This document shows positions 7,450 through 21,256 of a DNA stretch of 35,317 bases, one piece after another. The notes under the pieces were generated by a model. The model was given only the letters and a program-made list of their open reading frames with translations, was not told the DNA's origin and did not search any database. The DNA comes from DHVE2 group archaeon (GTDB taxonomy: Archaea > Thermoplasmatota > Thermoplasmata > Thermoplasmatales > Aciduliprofundaceae), in NCBI GenBank assembly GCA_027023265.1, contig JALVVV010000037.1, forward strand, positions 1-35,317, given 5' to 3'. The position numbers and the translations under genes were made by a program. Every line of letters starts with the position of its first letter. The stretch's first letter is position 1.

Positions 7450-8091
7450 TTAGAGAGACTTGTGGCAGAGCCACCAGTCGTAGCACTCAATCTCGCCCTT
7501 CTTCTTTCTCTCTTCTCTGTCCTTTATTGCGTCCACGCTTCCAGCAGGGGGCACGATGACACGGTCCTTGATTAATTCGTTATCAGGCCACTTATGCGGC
7601 ATAGCAACTCCGTTTGCATCGCTTACCTGCAGACCCCTCACAGCGCGCAGAATTTCATCCCAATCTCTGCCAAGCTCAGCTGGATAATACACGATTGCCC
7701 TAATGGTGCCCTTGGGATCGACTATGAACACTGCCCTGGCAGTTTGCGTGGAACCAGTGGGAATCATGCCAAGCATCTCTGCAAGGTCTCCGCGGTCGTC
7801 CGCTATCACTGGGAACTGTATCTCCTCGTTGAGATTGTCCTTAATCCATTCCATCCATTTCAGATGCGAGAAGACCTGGTCCACGCTCAGTCCGATCACT
7901 TCAACACCCAGCTCTTTGAACTTTTCCAGTCTTTTCTGCATAGCATAGAACTCCGTCGTGCACACTGGCGTGAAATCCGCCGGATGCGAGAACAGCACGA
8001 ACCACTTGCCCGCAAATTGATCGGGCAACTTCATTTTTCCATGCGTCGTATTTACTTCCACTTCCGGAAACTTTTCTCCTATTACTACCAT
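7450..8091 (-). CDS. Peroxiredoxin (Prx6-type, archaeal)
   Basis: A 213-residue thiol peroxidase that reduces hydrogen peroxide and organic peroxides. The peroxidatic cysteine is Cys44 in [13 protein letters not shown]. Two further cysteines near the C-terminus, Cys203 and Cys209 ([15 protein letters not shown]), match the arrangement of the archaeal Aeropyrum/Pyrococcus enzymes, in which one is the resolving residue. The ATG follows GGAGGTGA. It is the last gene of the nine-gene oxygen-defence run, 36 bases after the HdeD-like gene. Length is normal for the family. Confidence 0.93.
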
Positions 8092-8127
8092 TTTTTCACC
8101 TCCTTTTTTCTAATTCTATTTTATTTT

Positions 8128-8637
8128 TTATTGCTTCCCGTAAGCGCTTAGCACGAGGAGCATTATTCCATCTAAGAACAGTTCTATTGCCACGAACAGG
8201 CCTATTATCCATGTGGAATTGCTTGGCCATCCTGCAAACACCAGGACACCCAGTATGAAAGACAATATGCCAGTAACCAGGGGAGACCACCAGCCACTGT
8301 ACTCTGACTTGACGGCAAATGCAAACACAGATTTGATGATTCCCATAAGTATAAACCACGAGCCCAGAATAAATGTCATTGTCGATAGAGACTCAGCTGG
8401 ATACACTATCATCAATATGCCCACTATCAAAAGCAATATCCCTAGTAAATAGTTTAACCAGCCACCTTTGAACCCTGCTATGAAGAACATTATCCCGCCC
8501 AATATTAGCAGCGCTGCCAGCATCACCAGTATCATGCCCGTGGCAAATTCCGGGATAATCATGCCTATAATGCCCAAAATAAGAAGAAGAATTCCTCCTA
8601 TTTGGTAGCTCTTTTTATCTATATACACTGCTTCCAT
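8128..8637 (-). CDS. HdeD/DUF308-family membrane protein
   Basis: A 169-residue protein made almost wholly of six short hydrophobic segments arranged as three repeats (GGILLLILGIIGMIIPEFA, LLGILLLIVGILMIVYPAE, LVTGILSFILGVLVFAGWP), the pattern of the HdeD (DUF308) family. HdeD is linked to acid resistance in Escherichia coli, but the molecular role of the family is not known. The ATG at 8637 follows GGAGTGA; a GTG at 8646 is the alternative. It sits five bases after the superoxide reductase gene, so it is expressed with the redox genes. Whether it protects against acid, gases or oxidants here is unknown. Confidence 0.8.
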   Translation of the reverse strand: MEAVYIDKKSYQIGGILLLILGIIGMIIPEFATGMILVMLAALLILGGIMFFIAGFKGGWLNYLLGILLLIVGILMIVYPAESLSTMTFILGSWFILMGIIKSVFAFAVKSEYSGWWSPLVTGILSFILGVLVFAGWPSNSTWIIGLFVAIELFLDGIMLLVLSAYGKQ

Positions 8638-8642
8638 TATTT

Positions 8643-8990
8643 TCACTCCACGTCAACTTCGTTCTGCCAGAGCCCGTGTATGTTGCAGTAACTGAGCGCC
8701 ATCAATTTTCCTTTCTTTCCTGCTTTGAAATAGAACTTTGCTCTGGGCTCCGTTAGCGGCTCGCTGTGATTGCTGAAATCTACCCTGCCAATTAAAATTG
8801 GGAATTGCCCGTCCTCTGGCTTGAAATACAGTTCTATCCAGCCTATATGGTGCTCTGGCGTGTTTGGATGTGGTACTTCTTTACCCACAGCAACTTCCAC
8901 TTCTATCATCTCTCCATTCCTTTTGTACTCTATAACGGGCACATGCTTCTCTCCTTTCCAGTCTCCACTCTTTATGGTTTCACTCAACAT
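8643..8990 (-). CDS. Superoxide reductase (neelaredoxin type)
   Basis: A 115-residue enzyme that reduces superoxide to hydrogen peroxide without releasing oxygen, using rubredoxin as donor. The mononuclear iron site is complete: Glu14 and His16 (GEKHVP), His41 (PHPN), His47 (PEHHIGW), Cys102 and His105 (CNIHGLW). The first four positions equal those of the Pyrococcus enzyme. The desulforedoxin N-terminal domain of longer desulfoferrodoxins is absent. The start follows GGAGGTGA. It lies 16 bases after ferritin and 5 before the HdeD-like gene, and its peroxide product would be handled by the rubrerythrin and peroxiredoxins of the same run. Confidence 0.95.
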   Translation of the reverse strand: MLSETIKSGDWKGEKHVPVIEYKRNGEMIEVEVAVGKEVPHPNTPEHHIGWIELYFKPEDGQFPILIGRVDFSNHSEPLTEPRAKFYFKAGKKGKLMALSYCNIHGLWQNEVDVE

Positions 8991-9006
8991 TTTTAATCAC
9001 CTCCTT

Positions 9007-9522
9007 TTAAGTTCCTTCATTTACAAGGGGAGTGTAAGTTCTCGTGGCAAGCTCACGGTCCAGCATGAGCAAGCCATGCCCCTGATTTCCAATCATCTTC
9101 AGCATCTGTATAATTTCCTCATCATTTGCCTCTTCTTCAACCTGCTCATCAACGTACCACTGGAGCAAATTGAAAGTTGCCCTGTCCTTCTTTTTTTCTG
9201 CCAAATCAACAAGCTCGTTTATGCACTGGGTTATGTGCTTTTCGTGCTTTAGGGTCTCTTCAAAAGCGTGAAGCGGTGAGTTCCACTCATGTGGCGGCTC
9301 GTTAATAGCATAGAGCTTTACACGACCTCCTCTCTCAATCAGATACCTGTAGAACTTCATAGCGTGGTCCATCTCCTCCTGATACTGCACATACATCCAG
9401 TTTGCAAATCCCTTGAGCCCTATAGACTCAAAGTACGAAGACATAGACAGGTACAGGTACGCTGAGTACATCTCTTCGTTTATCTGCCTGTTTATCGCTT
9501 CTTCTATTTCCTTATCTATCAT
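9007..9522 (-). CDS. Ferritin
   Basis: A 171-residue non-heme ferritin that oxidises ferrous iron and stores it in a 24-mer shell. The ferroxidase ligands are in view: Glu17 in NEEMYSAYLYLSMSSYFES, Glu50 and His53 in YQEEMDHAMKFY, with the later glutamates and glutamine in HEKHITQCINELVDL and WYVDEQVEEE. The ATG at 9522 (MIDKEIEEAINRQ) follows AAGGAGGTGA; the frame continues open into the upstream rubrerythrin gene, but that extension is only overlap. Removal of free iron limits Fenton chemistry, which suits the neighbours. Confidence 0.93.
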   Translation of the reverse strand: MIDKEIEEAINRQINEEMYSAYLYLSMSSYFESIGLKGFANWMYVQYQEEMDHAMKFYRYLIERGGRVKLYAINEPPHEWNSPLHAFEETLKHEKHITQCINELVDLAEKKKDRATFNLLQWYVDEQVEEEANDEEIIQMLKMIGNQGHGLLMLDRELATRTYTPLVNEGT

Positions 9523-9535
9523 TTTTTTCACCTCC

Positions 9536-10042
9536 TTAAAACTTCTCAAATTTTTCACCGGGAGCACCGCAAACCGGGCATTTCTCCGGCGGCTCATCAC
9601 CCATGTAAGTGTAACCGCACACGGGGCATATGTATATGGATTCATTACCCACATCTTCATCATTTAACACTTTGTCCTTGGCATCGCTATACATTTCAGC
9701 GTGTATCTTTTCAGCTTCAATTGCATAGTGAAACGACAGCTCCGCGCCCTTTTCATTGAAATATTTGGCAAGCTCGAGGTACGCTGGATACATGTCCTCC
9801 ACCTCGAAAGTTTCTCCGCCTATCGCAGTTTTGAGATTCTCCTCGGTGCTCTTTATGTACCCCAAATTCCTCGCATGGTTCTTAGCGTGAACGAACTCCG
9901 CATAGGCTATAGCCCTGAATAATCTCGCTACATTCTTCTTTCCCTCTTTCTCCGCAACTTCTGCGAATATCGTGTATTTCATGTGCGCCATGCTCTCGCC
10001 TGCAAACGCTTCTTCCAAACTTTTTTCAACCATCTTTCTCAT
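9536..10042 (-). CDS. Rubrerythrin
   Basis: A 168-residue NAD(P)H-linked (through rubredoxin) peroxidase. The N-terminal four-helix diiron domain has Glu16, Glu49 and His52 (YAEFVHAKNH) and the later E..E..H set in YAIEAEKIHAEMY. The C-terminal rubredoxin-like domain binds iron through Cys139, Cys142, Cys155 and Cys158 (CPVCGY...CPVCGA). The start ATG at 10042 follows GGTGTAAAAT. Size is at the short end of classical rubrerythrins. It is flanked by ferritin and another diiron protein in the same run. Confidence 0.94.
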   Translation of the reverse strand: MRKMVEKSLEEAFAGESMAHMKYTIFAEVAEKEGKKNVARLFRAIAYAEFVHAKNHARNLGYIKSTEENLKTAIGGETFEVEDMYPAYLELAKYFNEKGAELSFHYAIEAEKIHAEMYSDAKDKVLNDEDVGNESIYICPVCGYTYMGDEPPEKCPVCGAPGEKFEKF

Positions 10043-10063
10043 ATTTTACACCATTTTGCAATC

Positions 10064-10552
10064 TTATGGCCCTGCATGCATCATCGGCCAGTATTCATCG
10101 TAATTTTCAAAGTTTTTCAAATTTTCAAGCTCCCGGGCTAACAAATCGTAGTGTCCCTGTTCCATGTTGGCGAGAATTTGTAACATTTTACTATTCTCCT
10201 CATCATTAAGCAAGTCTTTGAGATTCATGTAAAAATCCCTGGCAGCAAGCTCGGCTTTCATAGCATCTTCGATTATCTCACTTAGCAATCTATCTTCGCT
10301 TCCATCCACTTCAGGCAAGGGCACCGGCGTGCTCTCCGGAACCATCAGCTCCTCATCTGGAAACTTCTGCCTGTAAAGCGCTTCAAGATACGCCCTGTGC
10401 TTCTCCTCCTCGTTTGCAAGAAACAGAAGGCGGTCTTTGAACATCATGTTCTTAACTCGCCCCGCCAAATCTTCGTACAATTTCTTGCTATCAATCTCGC
10501 TTCTTATGGCTGCAAGGAGCAGCGTTTTCAGATTGTATTTTTCAATATCCAT
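10064..10552 (-). CDS. Ferritin-like diiron protein, rubrerythrin-related
   Basis: A 162-residue helical protein with two ExxH motifs, E49-x-x-H52 (ANEEEKHRAYLEALY) and E131-x-x-H134 (MEQGHYDLLARELE), plus Glu19 and Glu101 at matching places, so a complete diiron site of the rubrerythrin-like family (COG1633-type) is likely. No rubredoxin domain is present. A proline-rich linker (VPESTPVPLPEVDG, about 71-84) separates the two helix pairs. The ATG at 10552 follows GGAGGTGATTGAA. Its end is close to rubrerythrin (21 bases), and its start overlaps the PrxQ gene by 11 bases. The substrate is unknown. Confidence 0.8.
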   Translation of the reverse strand: MDIEKYNLKTLLLAAIRSEIDSKKLYEDLAGRVKNMMFKDRLLFLANEEEKHRAYLEALYRQKFPDEELMVPESTPVPLPEVDGSEDRLLSEIIEDAMKAELAARDFYMNLKDLLNDEENSKMLQILANMEQGHYDLLARELENLKNFENYDEYWPMMHAGP

Positions 10553-11015
10553 TTTCAATCACCTCCTCCAATTTCTTCAAAACATTTTCCACATGCCCGC
10601 TAACCCTCACCTTGGGCCAAACGTGCACTATTTTTCCATCCGGGTCTATGAGGAATGTACTCCTTATAGTCCCAAAATACTCCCTACCGTAGCTTTTTTT
10701 CTTGCCCCAAGCCCCGTACTTCTCCAGTATTTCGTGGTTCTCATCACTCAGCAGGAGAATATCCAATCCATGCTTCTCTATGAACCTTGCGTGGCTCCTC
10801 GGGGAATCCTTGCTTATCCCTATTATCACCGCATTTAATTTTTCAAATTTATCCTTCATCTCCGTGAACTCCTTAGCCTCTCTCGTGCACCCTGAGGTGT
10901 TATCCTTGGGATAGAAATAAAGCACTACCCATTTGCCCCGAAAATCATGGAGACAGTGCTCCTTGCCCTCGTAATCAGGCAGGCAGAAATCCACCGCCTC
11001 ATCTCCGGGCTTCAT
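10542..11015 (-). CDS. PrxQ/BCP-type peroxiredoxin
   Basis: A 157-residue thioredoxin-fold peroxidase of the bacterioferritin-comigratory-protein group. The peroxidatic cysteine is Cys43 (KDNTSGCTREAKEF). The resolving cysteine usually found five residues on is replaced by Lys48, so this is a 1-Cys or atypical member; Cys11 and Cys21 are the only other cysteines. The start overlaps the flavodiiron stop as ATGA, indicating coupled translation. It removes peroxides alongside the Prx6-type enzyme at the end of the run. Confidence 0.92.
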   Translation of the reverse strand: MKPGDEAVDFCLPDYEGKEHCLHDFRGKWVVLYFYPKDNTSGCTREAKEFTEMKDKFEKLNAVIIGISKDSPRSHARFIEKHGLDILLLSDENHEILEKYGAWGKKKSYGREYFGTIRSTFLIDPDGKIVHVWPKVRVSGHVENVLKKLEEVIENGY

Positions 11016-12196
11016 TTCATCACCCCTAACTCGCGGTGCTTCTCCGCGATTTTCTTTGCATATTCTCTTATCTTCTCGTAATCCTCCTTCTTGGGTGTTC
11101 CCTTTATCAATAGAGGCTCAAGAAGCTCCACCTTCAGCGCGCCGAGGTTGCTCTTAAGTATGTCCACGGTTCTTCCACCCCAGCCGTAAGAGCCCATGAT
11201 TCCGACAACCTTTACCTTCGGTTTGAGAGCGTTTGCAAGATACGCAGCATACACCACGCTGGGATGCGGTCCAGCAAGCATTGTGGGTGTGGCGAGAATC
11301 AAGGTAGTTACATCAACAAGGTCAATTGCAATCTCGCCCATGTCCGCGTGAACAATATCTCTTACCTTTACCTCAACTCCTTCATCCCCCAAGTAATCCA
11401 CCAGAGCGTCCACCATCTTCTTGGTACTGCCATGCATGGATACGTAAAGAATCAGGACTTCATTTTTAGTTGTTTCAGACACCCATTCCTTGTAGGCATT
11501 TATTATAGAAGAGGGCTCGCTGTATGCAGGACCATGACTTGGTGCTATTATCTTTGGTTCCAACGCCTCAATCTTCTTTATGTTCCTCATAACAATCTGT
11601 CTGAAAGGCATCATTATCTCTGAGTAATACCTCTTTGCCTCATGATATATGCGATCGTACTGCTCAGCAAAGGCATGCGTGGTCGCCGCATGGGAGCCAA
11701 AGAAATCGCAGGTGAACGCAATTTTATCTTCCACCAGGAATGTGGTCATGGTTTCTGGCCAGTGTACCCATGGAGTCATTATGAACTTCAGCGTTTTTCC
11801 ACCTAACTCCAGCGTGTCTCCTTCTTTAATAACTATAAAATCATCATCTTTCAAGGGCAAAAGGTCCATCTCGAACCCCTTGCACTTTGCATTTGTAACA
11901 ACCTTTGCACCGGGATATTTCTCAAGTAGAACAGGTATCGCCCCCGAATGGTCCTGCTCAGCATGGTTGGAAACAATGTAATCAATCTTTTTCACATTCA
12001 ATTCTTCCAGGTTCGCCAAAAGCTGTTCTACCTTCTCAGGCTCAACAGCATCAATAAGAGCTATTTTTTCCGAGCCAATGACCAGATACGCGTTGTAGCT
12101 AGTGCCCTGTGGAGTGGACACGATTTCATCGAACAGAGTGCGCTCCCAATCAATAGCTCCCACGTTGTAAACCCCATCTGCTATTTTTCTTATCAT
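11012..12196 (-). CDS. Flavodiiron protein (oxygen or NO reductase, FprA type)
   Basis: A 394-residue A-type flavodiiron protein. The N-terminal beta-lactamase-like domain carries all diiron ligands: His78, Glu80, Asp82 (SNHAEQDHSG), His145 (PWVHWPETM), Asp164 (FTCDFFGSH) and His221 (APSHGPAY). The C-terminal flavodoxin domain begins about residue 247 with the FMN phosphate loop VSMHGSTKKM. Such enzymes reduce O2 to water or NO to N2O; in methanogens the donor is F420H2, in others rubredoxin. A rubredoxin gene ending two bases upstream points to rubredoxin here. The ATG at 12196 follows GGAGG. Confidence 0.94.
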   Translation of the reverse strand: MIRKIADGVYNVGAIDWERTLFDEIVSTPQGTSYNAYLVIGSEKIALIDAVEPEKVEQLLANLEELNVKKIDYIVSNHAEQDHSGAIPVLLEKYPGAKVVTNAKCKGFEMDLLPLKDDDFIVIKEGDTLELGGKTLKFIMTPWVHWPETMTTFLVEDKIAFTCDFFGSHAATTHAFAEQYDRIYHEAKRYYSEIMMPFRQIVMRNIKKIEALEPKIIAPSHGPAYSEPSSIINAYKEWVSETTKNEVLILYVSMHGSTKKMVDALVDYLGDEGVEVKVRDIVHADMGEIAIDLVDVTTLILATPTMLAGPHPSVVYAAYLANALKPKVKVVGIMGSYGWGGRTVDILKSNLGALKVELLEPLLIKGTPKKEDYEKIREYAKKIAEKHRELGVMK

Positions 12197-12198
12197 TT

Positions 12199-12360
12199 TC
12201 AGTCCTCCACAGGCTCAAAGAGATCCTTCGAAGCCCCGCACACCGGGCAAACCCACTCTTCCGGCAGGTCCTCGAATGGCGTGCCAGCAGGAATTTCACT
12301 GTCAGGATCTCCAACTTCTGGGTCGTATATATATCCACATATTGTACACCTATACTTCAT
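12199..12360 (-). CDS. Rubredoxin
   Basis: A 53-residue iron electron carrier beginning [18 protein letters not shown]. The iron is held by Cys5, Cys8 (CTICGY), Cys38 and Cys41 (CPVCGA), and the conserved EEW of rubredoxins precedes the second pair. The ATG at 12360 follows AAAGGAGGTG. It is the first gene of the nine-gene run and should pass electrons to the flavodiiron protein, superoxide reductase and rubrerythrin encoded after it. Its reductase is not certain; the flavin reductase at 12474 is a candidate. Confidence 0.95.
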
Positions 12361-12473
12361 TTAAACACCTCCTTTTGATAAATTTTCGCATGCTGTTAAA
12401 GGAAAATCCCTGTTGATTCTCCCATCACCATAAGATTGAAACGACAACTGAAAAATGTAATTTCCAGCAAACA

Positions 12474-12998
12474 TCACGCACCACCTCCGGAATAAGTGGC
12501 TGCATTTTTGGGTGTTTTCCCCTTAATAACTTTGTGATAATAATCATAAGTCATTGGCACCTCGTCCGAAAGCCTTGCCCCATCCATCACTTCCCCAATA
12601 TAGAGAGTGTGTGTAAATAAATCTTCTTTTTTGATTACCTTCGCCTCTAAATACGCCACAGTATGCTCTCTCAAATAAGGAGCCCCATTATTCCCGATAT
12701 CATAATCAACCTGAGAAAACTTATCAACCTCACGACCGGAGCGAAATCCAAAAAGACCTATTAGCTTGAAAGGAGCATCCTTCGACAAAACTGAAACTGT
12801 AAACACACCGCTTGATTCTATAAACTCATGAGTCAAGTTATCTTTATTTATGCTTGTAGCAACGGTTATAGGTTCGGGCGTTATCTGAAATACAGTATTT
12901 ACTACCTGCCCATTTATTTTATCACCTTTTTTTGAGGAAACAACATACATGCCGTAATTTATGCTGTGTAATCCATCCTTTACATTTCTCATCACCAT
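12474..12998 (-). CDS. Flavin reductase-like FMN-binding protein
   Basis: A 174-residue protein of the flavin reductase split-barrel family. Typical segments are the N-terminal YGMYVVSSKKGDKINGQVVN, the FMN-contacting FQITPEPITVATSINKDNLTHE, and FTVSVLSKDAPFKLIGLFGF. It resembles the flavin domain of high-molecular-weight rubredoxin, which feeds rubredoxin and flavodiiron proteins in Moorella. The start at 12998 lies about 21-25 bases from a TATA box at 13016-13023, so the mRNA is probably leaderless. It is separated by 113 bases from the rubredoxin gene on the same strand and diverges from an Lrp-type regulator. Confidence 0.85.
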   Translation of the reverse strand: MVMRNVKDGLHSINYGMYVVSSKKGDKINGQVVNTVFQITPEPITVATSINKDNLTHEFIESSGVFTVSVLSKDAPFKLIGLFGFRSGREVDKFSQVDYDIGNNGAPYLREHTVAYLEAKVIKKEDLFTHTLYIGEVMDGARLSDEVPMTYDYYHKVIKGKTPKNAATYSGGGA

Positions 12999-14210: not shown

Positions 14211-17200
14211 TTAACTCGCAAGCCAGGAAATTATGTGGTTCATAACCATTATCCCGTTCTCCGAGTCGTACTTGTCAATAGCCTCAAATGAAAATGCTGT
14301 GAATACCACTCTGAAATTCTCAGAAGAGTACCTGTCCCCGACTGCATAGCCCTTGCTATCCTTGAATATCGCGTGAGCACCGCTTGCTATCTGTATCCTA
14401 TCGTCGTAGTTGTGGAAAGGATACTGCAAAGGTACAGGTGCAAGGTTTCCTGTTATCGGGTCACCACTAACCCCGTAAACCTTGTTATACCCCACATCGT
14501 TGGTCACACCGGTAACGCCCAAGTAATCATTTACAAATTGATTGTACACACTTCCGTCATAACCATCGGATACCTCCCAGAGGAAATCCTGTGACGTCAA
14601 ATACAACCTTCCGCCCGCGTCAAGGTACTTCATCAAGTTATCCTGGTCATCATCGGTCAAGGTGTCCTTATACGCATAACCTGTACTCCAAACCACTATG
14701 CCGTATTCTTCAAGCTCTTTATATGTAGGAGTCCTTCCAATCTGATACACGTCCCACTCATAAACCTCAAATCTACTCTTTATGTAAGAATTGTTGAGCG
14801 CATCTTCCACGTACTCGCTGTAAATACTACCATCGTCATCGTCCACAAACAGTATCTTGTTGGACAAAAGTCCCATGGTTGCGCTGGGTGTTGCATTTAC
14901 CTCGTTACTATTCTCGCTTTCACCGGCTGAATTCACCGCCGTAACGTAGTAATAATAAGTTACTCCATTAGTTACAGAGCGGTCTGTATACGATAAAGAT
15001 GAGCCGTTTACCTCCGCAAGGTAGGTCTCTCCCCCGCTACTTGTTCCGCGATATATGCGATACTCGGTTATTACAGAACCTCCGTTCTCGTCAGGAGGAT
15101 TCCACTCCAAGTGCACTTCTCCATTACCACCTGTTGCCCTCAAGTCAAGGGGAGCACCCGGAACTGAAACGTTATTACCAGAAGTACTTCCATTGAGAAG
15201 CCAGGTAATTATGCTCTTCATAAGCTCTGCGCCGGTATCACTGTCTTCAAGTTCCACTGCCTCGAAAGGAAATGCCGTGAAAACCGTTCTGAAAGTACCG
15301 GAATCGTAACGTGATGCAACATAATTACCGTTAGCATCGGTGAATATACCACGAGCGTGCCCGGGAGTTATTTCATCAGCGTAATTGGTGAACGGGAACT
15401 TAAGGGATATACTGGAGAAAGAAGAGGTTATTGGGTCATTGCTTACACCGTATATATTCTTGTAATCCTGGTCATTTCTCACTCCGGAAACACCTAAATA
15501 ATTGCTCACAAAATTGTTGTTTATATTCCCATCATTGCCATCGTTTAGGTCCCAGAGGAGATCCTGAGAACTAATATACAGTTTGCCTCCATCATTCAGG
15601 TACTTTTCCAGAGCACTTTGCTCCTCCGAATTAAGCACGTCTCTCCACATGGAGCCAGTTGTCCATACAACCACCCGGTAATTCTGGAAATCTGCGAAAG
15701 TAGGATAGCCCTTGGCATTAACATCCCATGTGTCGAATGAATATCCAGAATCGCTTATAGCTTCCTGAACATAATTGCTGTAACTCTTGCCACCATCATC
15801 ATCAACGAAGAGTATGAGTTTCTGGACCGTATTTTTATGAGGCGTGGCAGAAACTTCGTTACTTTTATCGCTTTCACCGGCTGAATTCACCGCCGTAACG
15901 TAGTAATAATAAGTTACTCCATTAGTTACAGAGCGGTCTGTATACGATAAAGATGAGCCGTTTACCTCCGCAAGGTAGGTCTCTCCCCCGCTACTTGTTC
16001 CGCGATATATGCGATACACACTTACATTGCCATTGGAACTGGCAGGCACTGGATAATAATAAATTCTCTTTCCACCGCCGTTCCATGTGTTTGGAGTACC
16101 CTGCCAGTAAAATATTTTCCCATCTGCATAACCCAATCTATTACCCACAAAATCTCCCACGGGGTATGGGAGATCATGCAAGTGTATCCATGTATTTGTT
16201 GGGATATTGTATTCAAAGAAATAATAACCGGGGGTTTCATTGCATCCATTACCCCCCAAAGCAAAGATAACGTTGGATAAAGAAGGATAGTAATGTCCAA
16301 GCCAGAGCAATGAGCCACCATCCCCCACACCTTCCGGATCGGGGATATCCTGCATCTTAACCCACTTGTTTGTTACGATATCGTAACGTGCAAAACCCCT
16401 AAGTGGCGAATTCTCGTAAAACTCACCTTCAAGCCCGTATATATACCTTCCCCCAGTCCAAGCAAGAGATGCACCATCATCTGTACCTTCATCAGGCCAC
16501 CATGACGGGAAGGACAGTTTTTCCCAAGTGTCTGTAGAGGGATTGTATCTTGCAAATATGCTGTAAGAGCCGGGATTATATGAACCAATATAATGTGCAC
16601 GACCGAGAAACGCGTAAATCATATGGTCATAACCTGAATAAACTATGGCATCCCCGGGGCCCTCAACATGAGGGGCATCTGCAAGCCGGCTCCACGTGTT
16701 TGAGGAAATTGAGTACATGTAGAAATACACACGGTCACCGTTGCTCCTATAAGAGCCGCCAGTGAGCACGTAAATATGCCCGTGGTAATCATAAGCCATG
16801 GCTACCCCGTTTTCAAATGGCACATTTGGCAATCCGGAACTCAAATCTGTCCATGTTCCGGTCTGCGGGTCGTACCTGTAAAACATGGGGGACGAATCAC
16901 TATCCTTCTGCCTCAATATGTAAATATAGTGCCCATCCCACGCCATGGCTTCGCCGTAACCCCCATCAAAAGATGTACTGGTTGCATAATGCCAAGTGGC
17001 ATTGCCTGTGGCAGGAGAGTTCCAGGTAAGCTTAACATAACCGTTTCCGCTAACTGCGGCTAAATTCTGCGGCGCACCGGGCACATTGGAATGTGAATTA
17101 TTCACACCCTGCGATGCCCACCTTACCATGTCAATACCTAGAGTAGCATCGTTGTACTTGGACCAGCCATCATACACATTATCATGGTGATTCGCACTAT

Positions 17201-17930
17201 CAGGAGTTCCATCATCAAAGGTTGAAGAATCTCCGAAAACAATTACCCTGCCAGAGCCGTAATATGCGTAGGCCATCACCGCGTAATTTACACCCCCAAT
17301 GTTCTGGTAAGCTACAGCCTTCGCATTGCCACTCACACTCATTGTGGCCCCTTCCCACATTCCAAAAGCGCTTACCCCATCTGTTAAAACAGGCACATTT
17401 TCAATATCAGTTATCTTGTGTCCGCTCTTTCCAGATTCTGTGGAAAGAAGAGTTATACCAAATACAGAATCAAAATTCAAATTATTATTCCATATTTTCC
17501 ACGAGGAATACCCGTTATGATTCCTGTCCGAGCCGGGATGGTCCGCAATATAAATCAAACTGCCTCCGTTGCTCACAAAATTCAAAATTACACTTCTTTC
17601 AGAACTGGTGAACTTGTCCTGAGGCTCAGGGATTATAAGGACCTTGCAACCCTGAAGTTCCTGAGAAGTTATGGTGCCGTGACCCGTGCCTATCTCCCCC
17701 ACGGAAAAACCCGCGTTTTTAAGCGCCTGCGCAAAAGAAGAATACGCACCATCTATGCGCCAGTCCGCATTACCCGCATCCTCATCTTTTGTAAAGTCAA
17801 ACAGCACCTTTGCCTGTGACCTCTGAGAGAACTGCACATCATGTGAAAAAAATCCCATGTAAACTCCAGAAGATACCATCACACCCATCAAGAGCACAAC
17901 TGCCCACTTAGTACCCACCCATGATAACAT
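14211..17930 (-). CDS. Giant exported mosaic protein: GATase-like, Fn3, Kelch
   Basis: A 1239-residue secreted protein; function unknown. After an N-terminal hydrophobic anchor (residues about 8-26) comes a glutamine-amidotransferase-like domain (about 38-285; KVLIIPEPQDKFTSSE, GSLIYIADHPGSD). Next is the first half of a fibronectin III domain (PGAPQNLAAVSGNGYVKLTW), then about six Kelch-type repeats (about 312-630), then the rest of the Fn3 domain. A second GATase-like domain starting ILFVDDDGG (about 705-905), a complete Fn3 domain and a third copy (ILFVDDDDGS, about 1020-1239) follow. The ATG at 17930 has GAAGGTG upstream; a GTG at 17939 is the alternative. Surface binding or carbohydrate processing is plausible but unproven. 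Confidence 0.8.
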   Translation of the reverse strand: MLSWVGTKWAVVLLMGVMVSSGVYMGFFSHDVQFSQRSQAKVLFDFTKDEDAGNADWRIDGAYSSFAQALKNAGFSVGEIGTGHGTITSQELQGCKVLIIPEPQDKFTSSERSVILNFVSNGGSLIYIADHPGSDRNHNGYSSWKIWNNNLNFDSVFGITLLSTESGKSGHKITDIENVPVLTDGVSAFGMWEGATMSVSGNAKAVAYQNIGGVNYAVMAYAYYGSGRVIVFGDSSTFDDGTPDSANHHDNVYDGWSKYNDATLGIDMVRWASQGVNNSHSNVPGAPQNLAAVSGNGYVKLTWNSPATGNATWHYATSTSFDGGYGEAMAWDGHYIYILRQKDSDSSPMFYRYDPQTGTWTDLSSGLPNVPFENGVAMAYDYHGHIYVLTGGSYRSNGDRVYFYMYSISSNTWSRLADAPHVEGPGDAIVYSGYDHMIYAFLGRAHYIGSYNPGSYSIFARYNPSTDTWEKLSFPSWWPDEGTDDGASLAWTGGRYIYGLEGEFYENSPLRGFARYDIVTNKWVKMQDIPDPEGVGDGGSLLWLGHYYPSLSNVIFALGGNGCNETPGYYFFEYNIPTNTWIHLHDLPYPVGDFVGNRLGYADGKIFYWQGTPNTWNGGGKRIYYYPVPASSNGNVSVYRIYRGTSSGGETYLAEVNGSSLSYTDRSVTNGVTYYYYVTAVNSAGESDKSNEVSATPHKNTVQKLILFVDDDGGKSYSNYVQEAISDSGYSFDTWDVNAKGYPTFADFQNYRVVVWTTGSMWRDVLNSEEQSALEKYLNDGGKLYISSQDLLWDLNDGNDGNINNNFVSNYLGVSGVRNDQDYKNIYGVSNDPITSSFSSISLKFPFTNYADEITPGHARGIFTDANGNYVASRYDSGTFRTVFTAFPFEAVELEDSDTGAELMKSIITWLLNGSTSGNNVSVPGAPLDLRATGGNGEVHLEWNPPDENGGSVITEYRIYRGTSSGGETYLAEVNGSSLSYTDRSVTNGVTYYYYVTAVNSAGESENSNEVNATPSATMGLLSNKILFVDDDDGSIYSEYVEDALNNSYIKSRFEVYEWDVYQIGRTPTYKELEEYGIVVWSTGYAYKDTLTDDDQDNLMKYLDAGGRLYLTSQDFLWEVSDGYDGSVYNQFVNDYLGVTGVTNDVGYNKVYGVSGDPITGNLAPVPLQYPFHNYDDRIQIASGAHAIFKDSKGYAVGDRYSSENFRVVFTAFSFEAIDKYDSENGIMVMNHIISWLAS
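14914..15063. repeat. 150-bp exact repeat, copy A
   Basis: Identical by reading to 15868-16017. It encodes the C-terminal half of the second Fn3 domain (YRIYRGTSSGGETYLAEVNG and onward, about residues 956-1006). The offset is 954 bp, a multiple of three, so both copies are in the same frame. Confidence 0.95.
15868..16017. repeat. 150-bp exact repeat, copy B
   Basis: Same 150 bases as 14914-15063, encoding the second half of the first, Kelch-interrupted Fn3 domain (about residues 638-688). Identity ends sharply on both sides while the neighbouring domains have diverged, which suggests recent gene conversion or a recent duplication. Confidence 0.95.
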
Positions 17931-17961
17931 TTGTAGCACCTTCTCTCAAGCCATTAATTTG

Positions 17962-17993: not shown

Positions 17994-18527
17994 TTACGAG
18001 AGCCATACCGAAACCAACGTACTTTTAGCGCCCTCGCTCATCCGGGATAAGTATTCTCTTTTCACACTCTCCCCGTAGTATTTTGCGGTTTCTAAAATAA
18101 ACTGGTCAAAAAAGAAATCGAGCTTTGTGGGGGATTCATATATCAACCTTACATACTTGGCATCAGCATCACGCTCGATAACCCTAATCCGCTTTTTATC
18201 CCGTATCAATGCTATTGACCCGTGAATCTCCTCTATGTTAGAAAGGAGAGAAAAAGCATCAGGATAATGCTCAATAATTCCTCTGAACATATCCACAATT
18301 ATCTTAAAAATATCTCTGGCAAGCTCTCTCTCAAAATTTTCCCGGGAGGTTATTCCAGAGACTTTCATCGCTGCATTTATCAACTTTAAAAAAGATTCGT
18401 CATCGTATTGCTTCTGATTCAAGAATTTTAACTCAAAACCATATTCCCTTCTCAGACTCTCCACACCAGAAGTGCCTTTCTTTTTCCTGACAGACTCTAC
18501 AACCATGTTGAACAAGAGACCTAACAT
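17994..18527 (-). CDS. H-NOX-like (heme NO/O2-binding) protein
   Basis: A 177-residue protein whose layout matches H-NOX domains when compared from memory with the Thermoanaerobacter (Caldanaerobacter) sensor: N-terminal MLGLLFNMVVESVRKKKG, a helical middle (DDESFLKLINAAMKVSGITS), LLSNIEEIHGSIALIRDK placing a histidine at residue 102, the known position of the proximal heme ligand, and LIYESPTKLDFFFDQFILE in place of the YxSxR segment. The tyrosine and serine are kept (130, 132), but the arginine is Thr134, so heme binding may be altered or lost. It stands alone with no fused signalling domain. A TATA-like GTTAAATACTC at 18546-18556 suggests a leaderless start. It might sense NO or O2 for the nearby redox genes (inference). 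Confidence 0.6.
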   Translation of the reverse strand: MLGLLFNMVVESVRKKKGTSGVESLRREYGFELKFLNQKQYDDESFLKLINAAMKVSGITSRENFERELARDIFKIIVDMFRGIIEHYPDAFSLLSNIEEIHGSIALIRDKKRIRVIERDADAKYVRLIYESPTKLDFFFDQFILETAKYYGESVKREYLSRMSEGAKSTLVSVWLS

Positions 18528-18626
18528 AAAAATAAAAGGAGCTTGGAGTATTTAACGGTTGGGATTTGCATTACCATGCAAATTGCAAGAACATCCAAAA
18601 AATAAATTTACGAAAATTGAAAAGAA

Positions 18627-20489
18627 TCAGTAGAAAGAGAATGGAGAGATGTAATCCCCGTGCTTTTTCCGGGCATCCTGAAGTCGCTTTTCCTCAGCGT
18701 CCAATTCTCTGAAAACTTCTTCAGGCACACCAACCATGTCCTCGTATATCTTTCTTATTCTACCTATCTTGCTCAAAAGCTCCGGAACTCGTATGGTAAA
18801 CTGTTTCTCGTAATCCTCCCTTCTATATTCTCTGTTAAATACCTCCCTGAACAAGCGTGCAAGGTCTTCGTACTTTGGAAGATACCCTATTGGGGTCTCT
18901 ATAGCATCTACATCTCCGTGAACTCTCAAATCCATCCACTTGAGCCATATCTTCTTGTCCAGCTTGGAATTTAGCCAGTTACCATCCTTGTCCCTGAGGA
19001 AATAATTCACCGCAAAAATCTTCGGGTGACTACTGAGCTTCTTTCCAAATTTGAGATAATTATCAAGGTAATCCCCAATATGCACCGAAAGAAAATCCAG
19101 TATTGACATCACGTTGTACTTTCTCACACCCTCCTTGCCGAGAGTGGCTGCCGTTGTTTCGGATTCTATGGACGCACCTTTCATCACAACGCCGTGCTCC
19201 CAGTTAAACGCCTCGCAAACAGGAGGCCAGGTATCAGAGTCGCGCCCACCATAAATTATGCCTGCAAGTTTCACACCATTCTTGGCGTCAAGGGCTTCGG
19301 CGTCCAGATTTGGAAAATACTTTAATCTCGCAGTGAACCTTGCATTCTTATGACTCGGAGGAATCTCATTTCCGTTCTCGTCCTTCTTTCCACACCACCA
19401 CTTCCCGCTGTGGTTCTCTCCCTCGCAAGGAATTTCCTCACCCATATCGTTCCAGTATGGTTTGCCCTCGTTGACCAGCACATTGGAGAAAATTATCTCG
19501 TAAGGGGAGTGTAAAACCTCCCATATGTAAGGGTCATCCTTCTTGTTAACACCCTGAATTATACCAAAAATACCGTACTCGACGTTAACAGCCCTTGCCT
19601 CACCATCAATATCCCTTATGAATGAAAGGTCGTCTCCAACCAACCTCTCACCAACAACCATACATGTTGAAGTTTTTCCGCACATGGAGGGAAAAGCACC
19701 CGTGAAATAAGAGACCCTGCCACCGGGACCGTTCACGCCCATCAAAAACATGTGCTCGCTCAACCAGCCTTCTTTGAGAGCCTTATTTATCGTCAACCTG
19801 AAAGCCGGTTTTTTAAGGCCGATGGTATTTCCAGCGTACTGCGTGTTAACCGCAAAGGCTATGTTGTCTTCCAAATCAATCATAACGCGCCTTTTATCTA
19901 AATTCTTACTCGTCCTCCTCCCGTCCAGTTCACCCTCAGCATGCACGAACTTAAGGAACTCCATGTCTGGATTTTTGACAAACTCGTCGTAAGCCTTGCG
20001 ATAAAGCATTAATTCGCTGTGGGCAACGTAAGGAGAATCGGTTATCTGAACAGCAGGAATCATGAATGGAGAATCTTTTGGCCCGAGAGAGAAGAACAGA
20101 ATGTACATCTCCTTTCCTTCCATAATATCAAGCAGGATATCGTGTATTTCTCGCAATCCCTTCTCCCTGTCCATGGTTTTTATGTACGGTAACTTTTTTC
20201 CGCCTTCTGTTAAAACATAAGTGTGCTCCTTGTCCCTGGCCTGGTCATAGTAATTATCAAAGTGCACCGTGTGGCCCGGCATGGTAAGAAGCTTTTCTTC
20301 CCGCTCAATTATTGCCTTGTTCCTCACGTAAAGCTCGTCTTCTTCAGAATCGGTAACAACGAAAACCGATGATGGAGAGCAAACTGCGATGTACTTCTCC
20401 AAAAAACACATCAGCTCCTCGTTTTTCAATTTTTCCAATTTCTTGAATTGCTCATCTGATAATTTTTCCCGTAAGAATCTCATTGGCAT
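18627..20489 (-). CDS. pckG: Phosphoenolpyruvate carboxykinase (GTP)
   Basis: A 620-residue cytosolic enzyme interconverting oxaloacetate plus GTP with PEP plus CO2 and GDP, central to gluconeogenesis. The GTP-type active-site loop is FTGAFPSMCGKTSTCMVVGE, with the reactive Cys270 and P-loop Lys272. Other conserved parts are the substrate-binding AHSELMLYR, GERLVGDDLSFIRD (metal and nucleotide site) and ENHSGKWWCGKKDENG. The ATG at 20489 follows GGTGAG; an in-frame GTG at 20498 is the alternative. It diverges from carS across about 150 AT-rich bases. Confidence 0.95.
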   Translation of the reverse strand: MPMRFLREKLSDEQFKKLEKLKNEELMCFLEKYIAVCSPSSVFVVTDSEEDELYVRNKAIIEREEKLLTMPGHTVHFDNYYDQARDKEHTYVLTEGGKKLPYIKTMDREKGLREIHDILLDIMEGKEMYILFFSLGPKDSPFMIPAVQITDSPYVAHSELMLYRKAYDEFVKNPDMEFLKFVHAEGELDGRRTSKNLDKRRVMIDLEDNIAFAVNTQYAGNTIGLKKPAFRLTINKALKEGWLSEHMFLMGVNGPGGRVSYFTGAFPSMCGKTSTCMVVGERLVGDDLSFIRDIDGEARAVNVEYGIFGIIQGVNKKDDPYIWEVLHSPYEIIFSNVLVNEGKPYWNDMGEEIPCEGENHSGKWWCGKKDENGNEIPPSHKNARFTARLKYFPNLDAEALDAKNGVKLAGIIYGGRDSDTWPPVCEAFNWEHGVVMKGASIESETTAATLGKEGVRKYNVMSILDFLSVHIGDYLDNYLKFGKKLSSHPKIFAVNYFLRDKDGNWLNSKLDKKIWLKWMDLRVHGDVDAIETPIGYLPKYEDLARLFREVFNREYRREDYEKQFTIRVPELLSKIGRIRKIYEDMVGVPEEVFRELDAEEKRLQDARKKHGDYISPFSFY

Positions 20490-20647
20490 ATTTCTCACCG
20501 ATTGGGGTAAATCACACTATTGAGTAAAAATCTTTTGATTTATGGAGTTATATTACATTTGTTTAAAGAAAATACAAAATAAAATAAATTCTTCCAGATT
20601 GTCACTAAAGTTAAAGCCACTAAAAATAAACAATTAATAAATAAAAA

Positions 20648-21256
20648 ATGGTAATGCAAAACATTATCTTGAAAAAAGGCAATACGGTTGAGATGAGTGG
20701 TGTTGTTGAGGAGATAGTGGCTACACTCTGGCTAATGCTTCCCATTTACCTGCCCAATCCCGGCGCTGTAATATTTGGAGGTGGCACACCCATAGATTTT
20801 GGAAAAAATTTCTTTGATGGCAAGAGAATACTGGGAAAAAGCAAGACGTGGAGAGGGTTCATAGGAGGCTCACTCTTCGGAGTTGTCATTGGACTCGTTC
20901 AAAATTACCTTGCTTACTTTCTCCCAAGCACATGGTTTCCGTTTTTCTCCAAAGATTGGATTTATGCTCTACTTCTCCTAATAACCATGTCATTTTCATC
21001 AATGCTTGGGGATTCCACAGGGTCGTTTATAAAAAGGAGACTCGGAATTAACAGCGGAGGACGTGCGTTCCTGTTAGATCAGCTCATGTTCGTGATTATC
21101 TCATGGCTATTCCTTTTCTTGTTCTTCCCAGCCTGGTTCCTGGAGCGTTTCTGGAAAATTGTCCCCGTACTAACCGTATTCGTCCTAACTCCATTAATAC
21201 ATAGGGGTGTAAACATAGCGGCTTACAAGCTGGGATACAAAGATGTTCCGTGGTGA
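20648..21256 (+). CDS. carS: CDP-archaeol synthase
   Basis: A membrane enzyme joining CTP to unsaturated archaetidic acid in archaeal lipid synthesis. Conserved segments include LPIYLPNPGAVIFGGGTPID, GKRILGKSKTWRGFIGG, and GDSTGSFIKRRLGINSGGRA followed by FLLDQLMFVI. The last usually reads DQLDF; here the aspartate position is methionine. About five hydrophobic segments are seen. The start is uncertain: ATG at 20648 (202 residues) or ATG at 20693 (187 residues), the latter closer to the usual family start. Neither has a clear ribosome site at normal spacing. Confidence 0.88.
   Translation: MVMQNIILKKGNTVEMSGVVEEIVATLWLMLPIYLPNPGAVIFGGGTPIDFGKNFFDGKRILGKSKTWRGFIGGSLFGVVIGLVQNYLAYFLPSTWFPFFSKDWIYALLLLITMSFSSMLGDSTGSFIKRRLGINSGGRAFLLDQLMFVIISWLFLFLFFPAWFLERFWKIVPVLTVFVLTPLIHRGVNIAAYKLGYKDVPW

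Follow-up and report, generated by a model that had tools for sequence, protein, structure and literature searches.

A vent archaeon of the DHVE2 group (Aciduliprofundum-like) carries a stand-alone protein of the H-NOX family which keeps the proximal histidine of the heme pocket and has lost the arginine of the YxSxR motif. The H-NOX family itself, the textbook NO-sensing heme fold common to bacteria and animals, is known; what is new is this His-plus, Arg-minus kind, which we have seen in one genus only. Because the histidine is kept, the clamping arginine is lost, and there is no sign of heme-making, this well-known sensor of gas has in all probability been retuned in this organism or put to another use. 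The reading we favor, with a probability of about 0.45, is a lineage-specific, strongly diverged H-NOX whose His-anchored pocket would hold scavenged heme or another ligand weakly. The structural and evolutionary statements made below are near certain, and the ligand and the partner protein are what we infer. A clade with the histidine, without the arginine, and without detectable heme synthesis represents a natural experiment on the purpose of that arginine; it bears on the question of an H-NOX that functions with labile heme, with another ligand, or with none, and it brings the archaea into the evolutionary picture of H-NOX.

Family and fold of the protein

The gene lies in the window, by which we mean the whole stretch of 35,317 nucleotides that was analyzed, and belongs to a genome of 1.64 Mb in 59 contigs. 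It is the sole ORF of its interval (18527..17994, minus strand), begins with ATG, and specifies a protein of 177 aa (P0001). In a Pfam search, the protein matched PF07700 (HNOB) with 60 bits and an E of 3.5e-16, relative to a gathering cut-off of 25.5, and the match ran from residue 3 to residue 156 of the protein and from position 2 to position 160 of the 163-position profile. HNOB was the sole Pfam family at E<=10, and NCBIfam returned TIGR02265 alone, below its threshold; the significant score was with HNOB, and a DUF2378-type model scored weakly. An AlphaFold2 model made with six homologues reached a pLDDT of 89.4 and a pTM of 0.82, and the best 48 PDB matches of this model in Foldseek were all H-NOX structures, headed by Shewanella oneidensis H-NOX (TM 0.84, 16% identity). 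Judged on the predicted structure, the likeness to H-NOX is far above chance level. Given the Pfam match and the Foldseek result, the family and fold proposed in the initial annotation stand, and neither of the outcomes named beforehand as speaking against them (no HNOB match combined with another fold, or an unconserved His102) was what we found. Matches to Factor V and P450 in a single-sequence PDB search (E 0.02-1) were set aside as chance, being weak or absent with a profile. A search of a phage collection gave no match, and a phage origin was dropped.

The heme pocket keeps its histidine and loses its arginine

The initial annotation had placed the proximal heme ligand at His102 and had called the YxSxR motif broken, and it had proposed to ask whether related archaea keep this histidine and lack the arginine. 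We addressed this question with an alignment of the query and nine other homologues of the genus, which are 29-46% identical to the query. His102 (codon 18222..18224, minus strand, in IEEIHGSIAL) falls in the profile alignment on the proximal His103 of the Shewanella protein, which is His102 in Thermoanaerobacter, and it is invariant in all ten homologues; the initial annotation is supported in equating it with the proximal ligand. The degenerate motif YESPT (residues 130-134; 18126..18140, minus strand) keeps Tyr and Ser, and its Thr134 falls on Arg136 of the Shewanella YxSxR. Throughout the genus, the motif reads YxSP[T/N], with Thr in seven sequences and Asn in three, so the arginine is missing clade-wide (10/10, each with H102) and its loss is no one-off. 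It is retained in all canonical Thermoplasmatota and bacterial comparators.

Other positions of the pocket have changed as well. In every one of the ten homologues, Ile, Val, or Leu replaces the heme-contacting proline (Pro115 in Thermoanaerobacter, Pro116 in Shewanella), the hinge residue Gly70 is Ala in nine of them, and Phe139 is conserved in most. The motif is followed by a clade-specific continuation, K135-L-D137 (18117..18125, minus strand), in which K135 is found in 9/10 and D137 is invariant; in all ten, this Asp occupies the position of the Shewanella zinc ligand Cys139, and the window protein contains zero cysteines. Across the ten homologues, 15 of the 177 query positions are invariant, with H102, Y130, and S132 among them, and the probability that all three of these named columns would be invariant by chance is ∼5e-4, a rough value which ignores shared structural constraint. 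On sequence grounds, the protein has lost the motif arginine, the heme-contacting proline, and one or both hinge glycines. Compared with Shewanella oneidensis SO2144 (PDB 4u9b, 2kii), the window protein is alike in fold (TM 0.84), length, Met1 start, proximal histidine, and motif Tyr and Ser. At 16% identity, it differs by having Thr for Arg136, Ile for Pro116, and Ala and Gln for the hinge residues Gly70 and Gly144, by the missing zinc cysteines, and by having no adjacent histidine kinase, cyclase, or chemoreceptor.

Distribution of canonical and arginine-less forms

The host genome has three H-NOX paralogs (the window gene and copies at C18:106268 and C1:60901). Homologues are present in 7/8 genomes of the genus, the eighth genome being 70% complete, and were found in 0/10 genomes of sister genera in the same taxonomic family. 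A tree of 33 sequences unites the ten sequences of the genus with support of 100/100, and the branch leading to them is long (2.96 substitutions per site); the attachment point of this ten-sequence clade is weak (83/68) and not to be trusted.

It had been suggested that an H-NOX in an archaeon would be exceptional in itself. That does not hold: of 390 Thermoplasmatota genomes sampled, fourteen from other taxonomic families carry a canonical HNOB protein (L004-L016, L019; 52-141 bits), and all fourteen proteins have the histidine and YxSxR, although the automatic alignment puts the histidine of L012 one column off. Counts from these large profile searches are lower bounds, as the searches open with a loose pass and failed to recover some members already known. 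The canonical proteins resemble the window protein in Pfam family, in having archaeal hosts, and in that HemB was detected in 0/14 of their genomes; they are unlike it in keeping both YxSxR and the proline. By signature scan and profile searches, the Arg-less kind was seen in this genus only; the genome-wide scan needed SP[TN]K[LF]DxFF, and differently shaped Arg-less members elsewhere may escape it. Weak HNOB matches in the phylum (18-24 bits) look like eIF2-alpha by sequence (S1-type N terminus) and were rejected as H-NOX.

Methanogen MetOD1 resembles HNOB (PMC5847659), and MetOD1, V4R, and DUF2378 represent the HNOB-like superfamily in archaea, as does the window protein. Two proteins of the same genus and class, L085 (G347) and L083 (G355), are HNOB-superfamily-like and weakly DUF2378/V4R-like and, unlike the window protein, do not score as HNOB. 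We found no report on H-NOX or HNOB in archaea or Thermoplasmata in the literature outside most subscription journals, the MetOD1 likeness aside.

Heme supply in the host family

HemB (PF00490, porphobilinogen synthase) and HemC (PF01379, hydroxymethylbilane synthase) were each found in 0/18 genomes of the family, complete ones included, and so were heme-copper oxidase and cytochrome bd (0/18 for each). A control search was positive in 11/14 well-known genomes, and HemB was present throughout the listed genomes of sister family f2. The survey of heme supply and use comprised HemB, HemC, and these two oxidase families. Candidates for AhbD were SPASM radical SAM proteins well under the 500-bit cut-off and were not accepted as evidence of heme synthesis. 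Going by gene content, de novo synthesis of tetrapyrroles is probably absent from the organism, as are the commonest heme oxidases.

With HemB, HemC, and both oxidase families missing, constitutive heme-loaded sensing becomes doubtful, classic heme-NO sensing included; the use of scavenged heme is compatible with the same data. Missing synthesis alone is no bar to heme use, because Thermoplasmatota in which HemB was not detected carry canonical H-NOX. Of the initial annotation, the family, the fold, the proximal histidine, and the loss of the motif arginine hold up; the label "heme gas sensor" is unproven, and it is weakened by the two tetrapyrrole enzymes and two oxidase families that were not found. 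Whether the protein takes heme, takes another ligand, or acts as an apo-sensor was, in our judgment, the right question to ask.

A side observation concerns the canonical proteins. None of the fourteen genomes carrying them is among the 138 HemB-positive genomes of the 390 (hypergeometric p ∼0.002, phylogeny uncorrected), and within genus g80 of family f34, five genomes have H-NOX without HemB and five others have HemB without H-NOX. In the Thermoplasmatota sampled, having an H-NOX and making heme may exclude each other.

What the pocket may bind

The residues kept (His, Tyr, Ser) and those lost (Arg, Pro, hinge Gly) agree with a pocket which uses His102 without a tight clamp. With the arginine gone, no guanidinium group is there to form a salt bridge with the propionates, and heme would be expected to sit looser than in canonical H-NOX. 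We propose that the window H-NOX would not be constitutively loaded with heme; that its His102-anchored pocket would take up scarce scavenged heme, another metal-tetrapyrrole, or another ligand, weakly and reversibly; and that occupancy of the pocket would switch a partner protein. As a guess, the partner could be one of three unlinked proteins of the host genome (frames of 314, 685, and 1039 aa) with strong matches to histidine-kinase-type ATPase domains. Were heme irrelevant, one would expect drift at His, Tyr, and Ser; this speaks against such a weak pocket, and for this reason ordinary binding of imported heme keeps a share of the probability.

Ordinary binding is the substance of the main alternative, in which the protein is a classic heme sensor of NO (or CO), with scavenged heme stably bound via His102. 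Tyr130, Ser132, and perhaps Lys135 would hold the propionates, and Phe at the position of the O2-stabilizing Tyr140 of Thermoanaerobacter would favor NO over O2. The invariant His, Tyr, and Ser are consistent with this, as are the lysine which adjoins the lost arginine in 9/10 homologues and the mostly conserved Phe139; owners of H-NOX that import their heme may exist, and HemB was not detected in the other Thermoplasmatota with canonical H-NOX. We nevertheless consider a classic sensor somewhat unlikely: the arginine is gone in every homologue and Lys135 is not strictly kept in its stead, the heme-contacting proline is lost, and none of the 18 family genomes yielded HemB, HemC, heme-copper oxidase, or bd oxidase.

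The H-NOX fold could also have been repurposed altogether, serving heme-free for a non-heme ligand or as a scaffold for protein interactions, with His102 in a structural role or as ligand to something else. There are precedents. YxSxR defines heme-binding H-NOX, and non-heme domains without it are still H-NOX by fold (PMC8196705). The H-NOX domain of the sGC alpha subunit, where heme-handling residues are lost from the same fold as in the window protein, is heme-free, the histidine being missing in human and YxSxR in moth (PMC8196705). Unlike the window protein, which has no N-terminal extension, this domain is part of a large enzyme, and its pocket is blocked by such an extension. Vibrio cholerae H-NOX works heme-free as a redox sensor (PMC7108781), by a mechanism which needs cysteines and zinc (three zinc-binding cysteines); since the window protein is without cysteine, we exclude this version. 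Several heme-linked positions altered together, in a family where neither HemB, HemC, nor the two oxidase families were found, would suit a heme-free fold, but His102, Tyr130, and Ser132 are the exact residues that handle heme and show no drift, and we think it plainly unlikely that the protein has given up heme in this manner.

The weak, reversible pocket that we favor has one further variant, which strikes us as unlikely. An exchangeable, His-coordinated heme or metal-tetrapyrrole would here be the signal itself, and the protein would sense the availability of the cofactor rather than a gas; loss of the arginine clamp would have turned a fixed heme into an exchangeable ligand, in archaea which make no heme.

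Selection on the gene copies

For intact close pairs of the family, dN/dS was 0.08 and 0.13, and for A-type genes related to the window copy, it was 0.08; we conclude that the H-NOX family of the genus is maintained by purifying selection. Between the window gene and its ortholog in the sister species G227 (L034/L045), dN/dS was 0.26, above the values of the neighbors and of the other paralogs. The G227 ortholog is frameshifted by three indels, and both of its flanking genes are 95% identical to those of the window; the window-type copy is therefore dispensable in G227. Assembly error in this MAG is an unlikely cause because the indels are three separate ones. That the window copy is itself a decaying paralog without current function, the work being left to the two B-type paralogs, would agree with the broken ortholog and with the raised dN/dS, but this is very improbable given that the ORF is intact, retains every residue invariant in the clade, and has a TATA-like element, and given the 0.08 of the related A-type genes.

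Gene neighborhood

On the minus strand, the gene is flanked upstream by a GTP-dependent PEP carboxykinase (18627..20498), a housekeeping gene, and downstream by a Kelch/fibronectin-III protein of 1242 aa (14211..17939), neither of which we think part of the system. The Kelch/fibronectin-III protein has ThuA/GATase-like parts and is probably a surface protein. A CDP-archaeol synthase gene (20648-21256), also in the window, confirms that the host is an archaeon. The TATA-box-like TTAAATA (18549..18555, minus strand) lies ∼25 nt before the ATG and is kept in G227. Because a TATA-like element precedes both the H-NOX gene and its downstream gene, the sequence suggests separate transcripts, and that of the H-NOX gene is possibly leaderless.

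The initial annotation had drawn attention to a nearby flavodiiron operon. The flavodiiron gene (12196..11012) is 5.8 kb from the H-NOX gene and in another transcription unit, an opposite-strand AsnC-type regulator and the 3.7-kb surface-protein gene intervene, and most homologues do not share the neighborhood; we therefore discarded the link. The flavodiiron protein belongs to a compact island of non-heme defense against oxygen, peroxide, and superoxide at 7450-12998, which also holds two peroxiredoxins, a desulfoferrodoxin, a ferritin-like protein, two rubrerythrins, and a flavin reductase.

Other copies in the genus adjoin a radical SAM gene and S-adenosylhomocysteinase (AdoHcyase), or HisRS, or lie near FtsZ. 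Radical SAM, H-NOX, and AdoHcyase adjoin in G392 and G393, with placement between or beside the other two at L048, L049, L003, and L002. We rejected this neighborhood as a functional clue, as the radical SAM and AdoHcyase genes also stand side by side, with no H-NOX, in G282 and in a genome of another genus, G399. For the same reason, insertion is the simpler reading, and it appears more likely that H-NOX landed between an older pair. No histidine kinase, diguanylate cyclase, or chemoreceptor lies beside the window gene or the other copies of the genus. Among the canonical proteins, in 7/8 genomes of family f34 (L005-L011), the H-NOX gene has downstream of it, directly or no more than ∼0.7 kb away, a gene whose coiled-coil product carries membrane segments; this product, which has no kinase domain, is a candidate partner of archaeal H-NOX.
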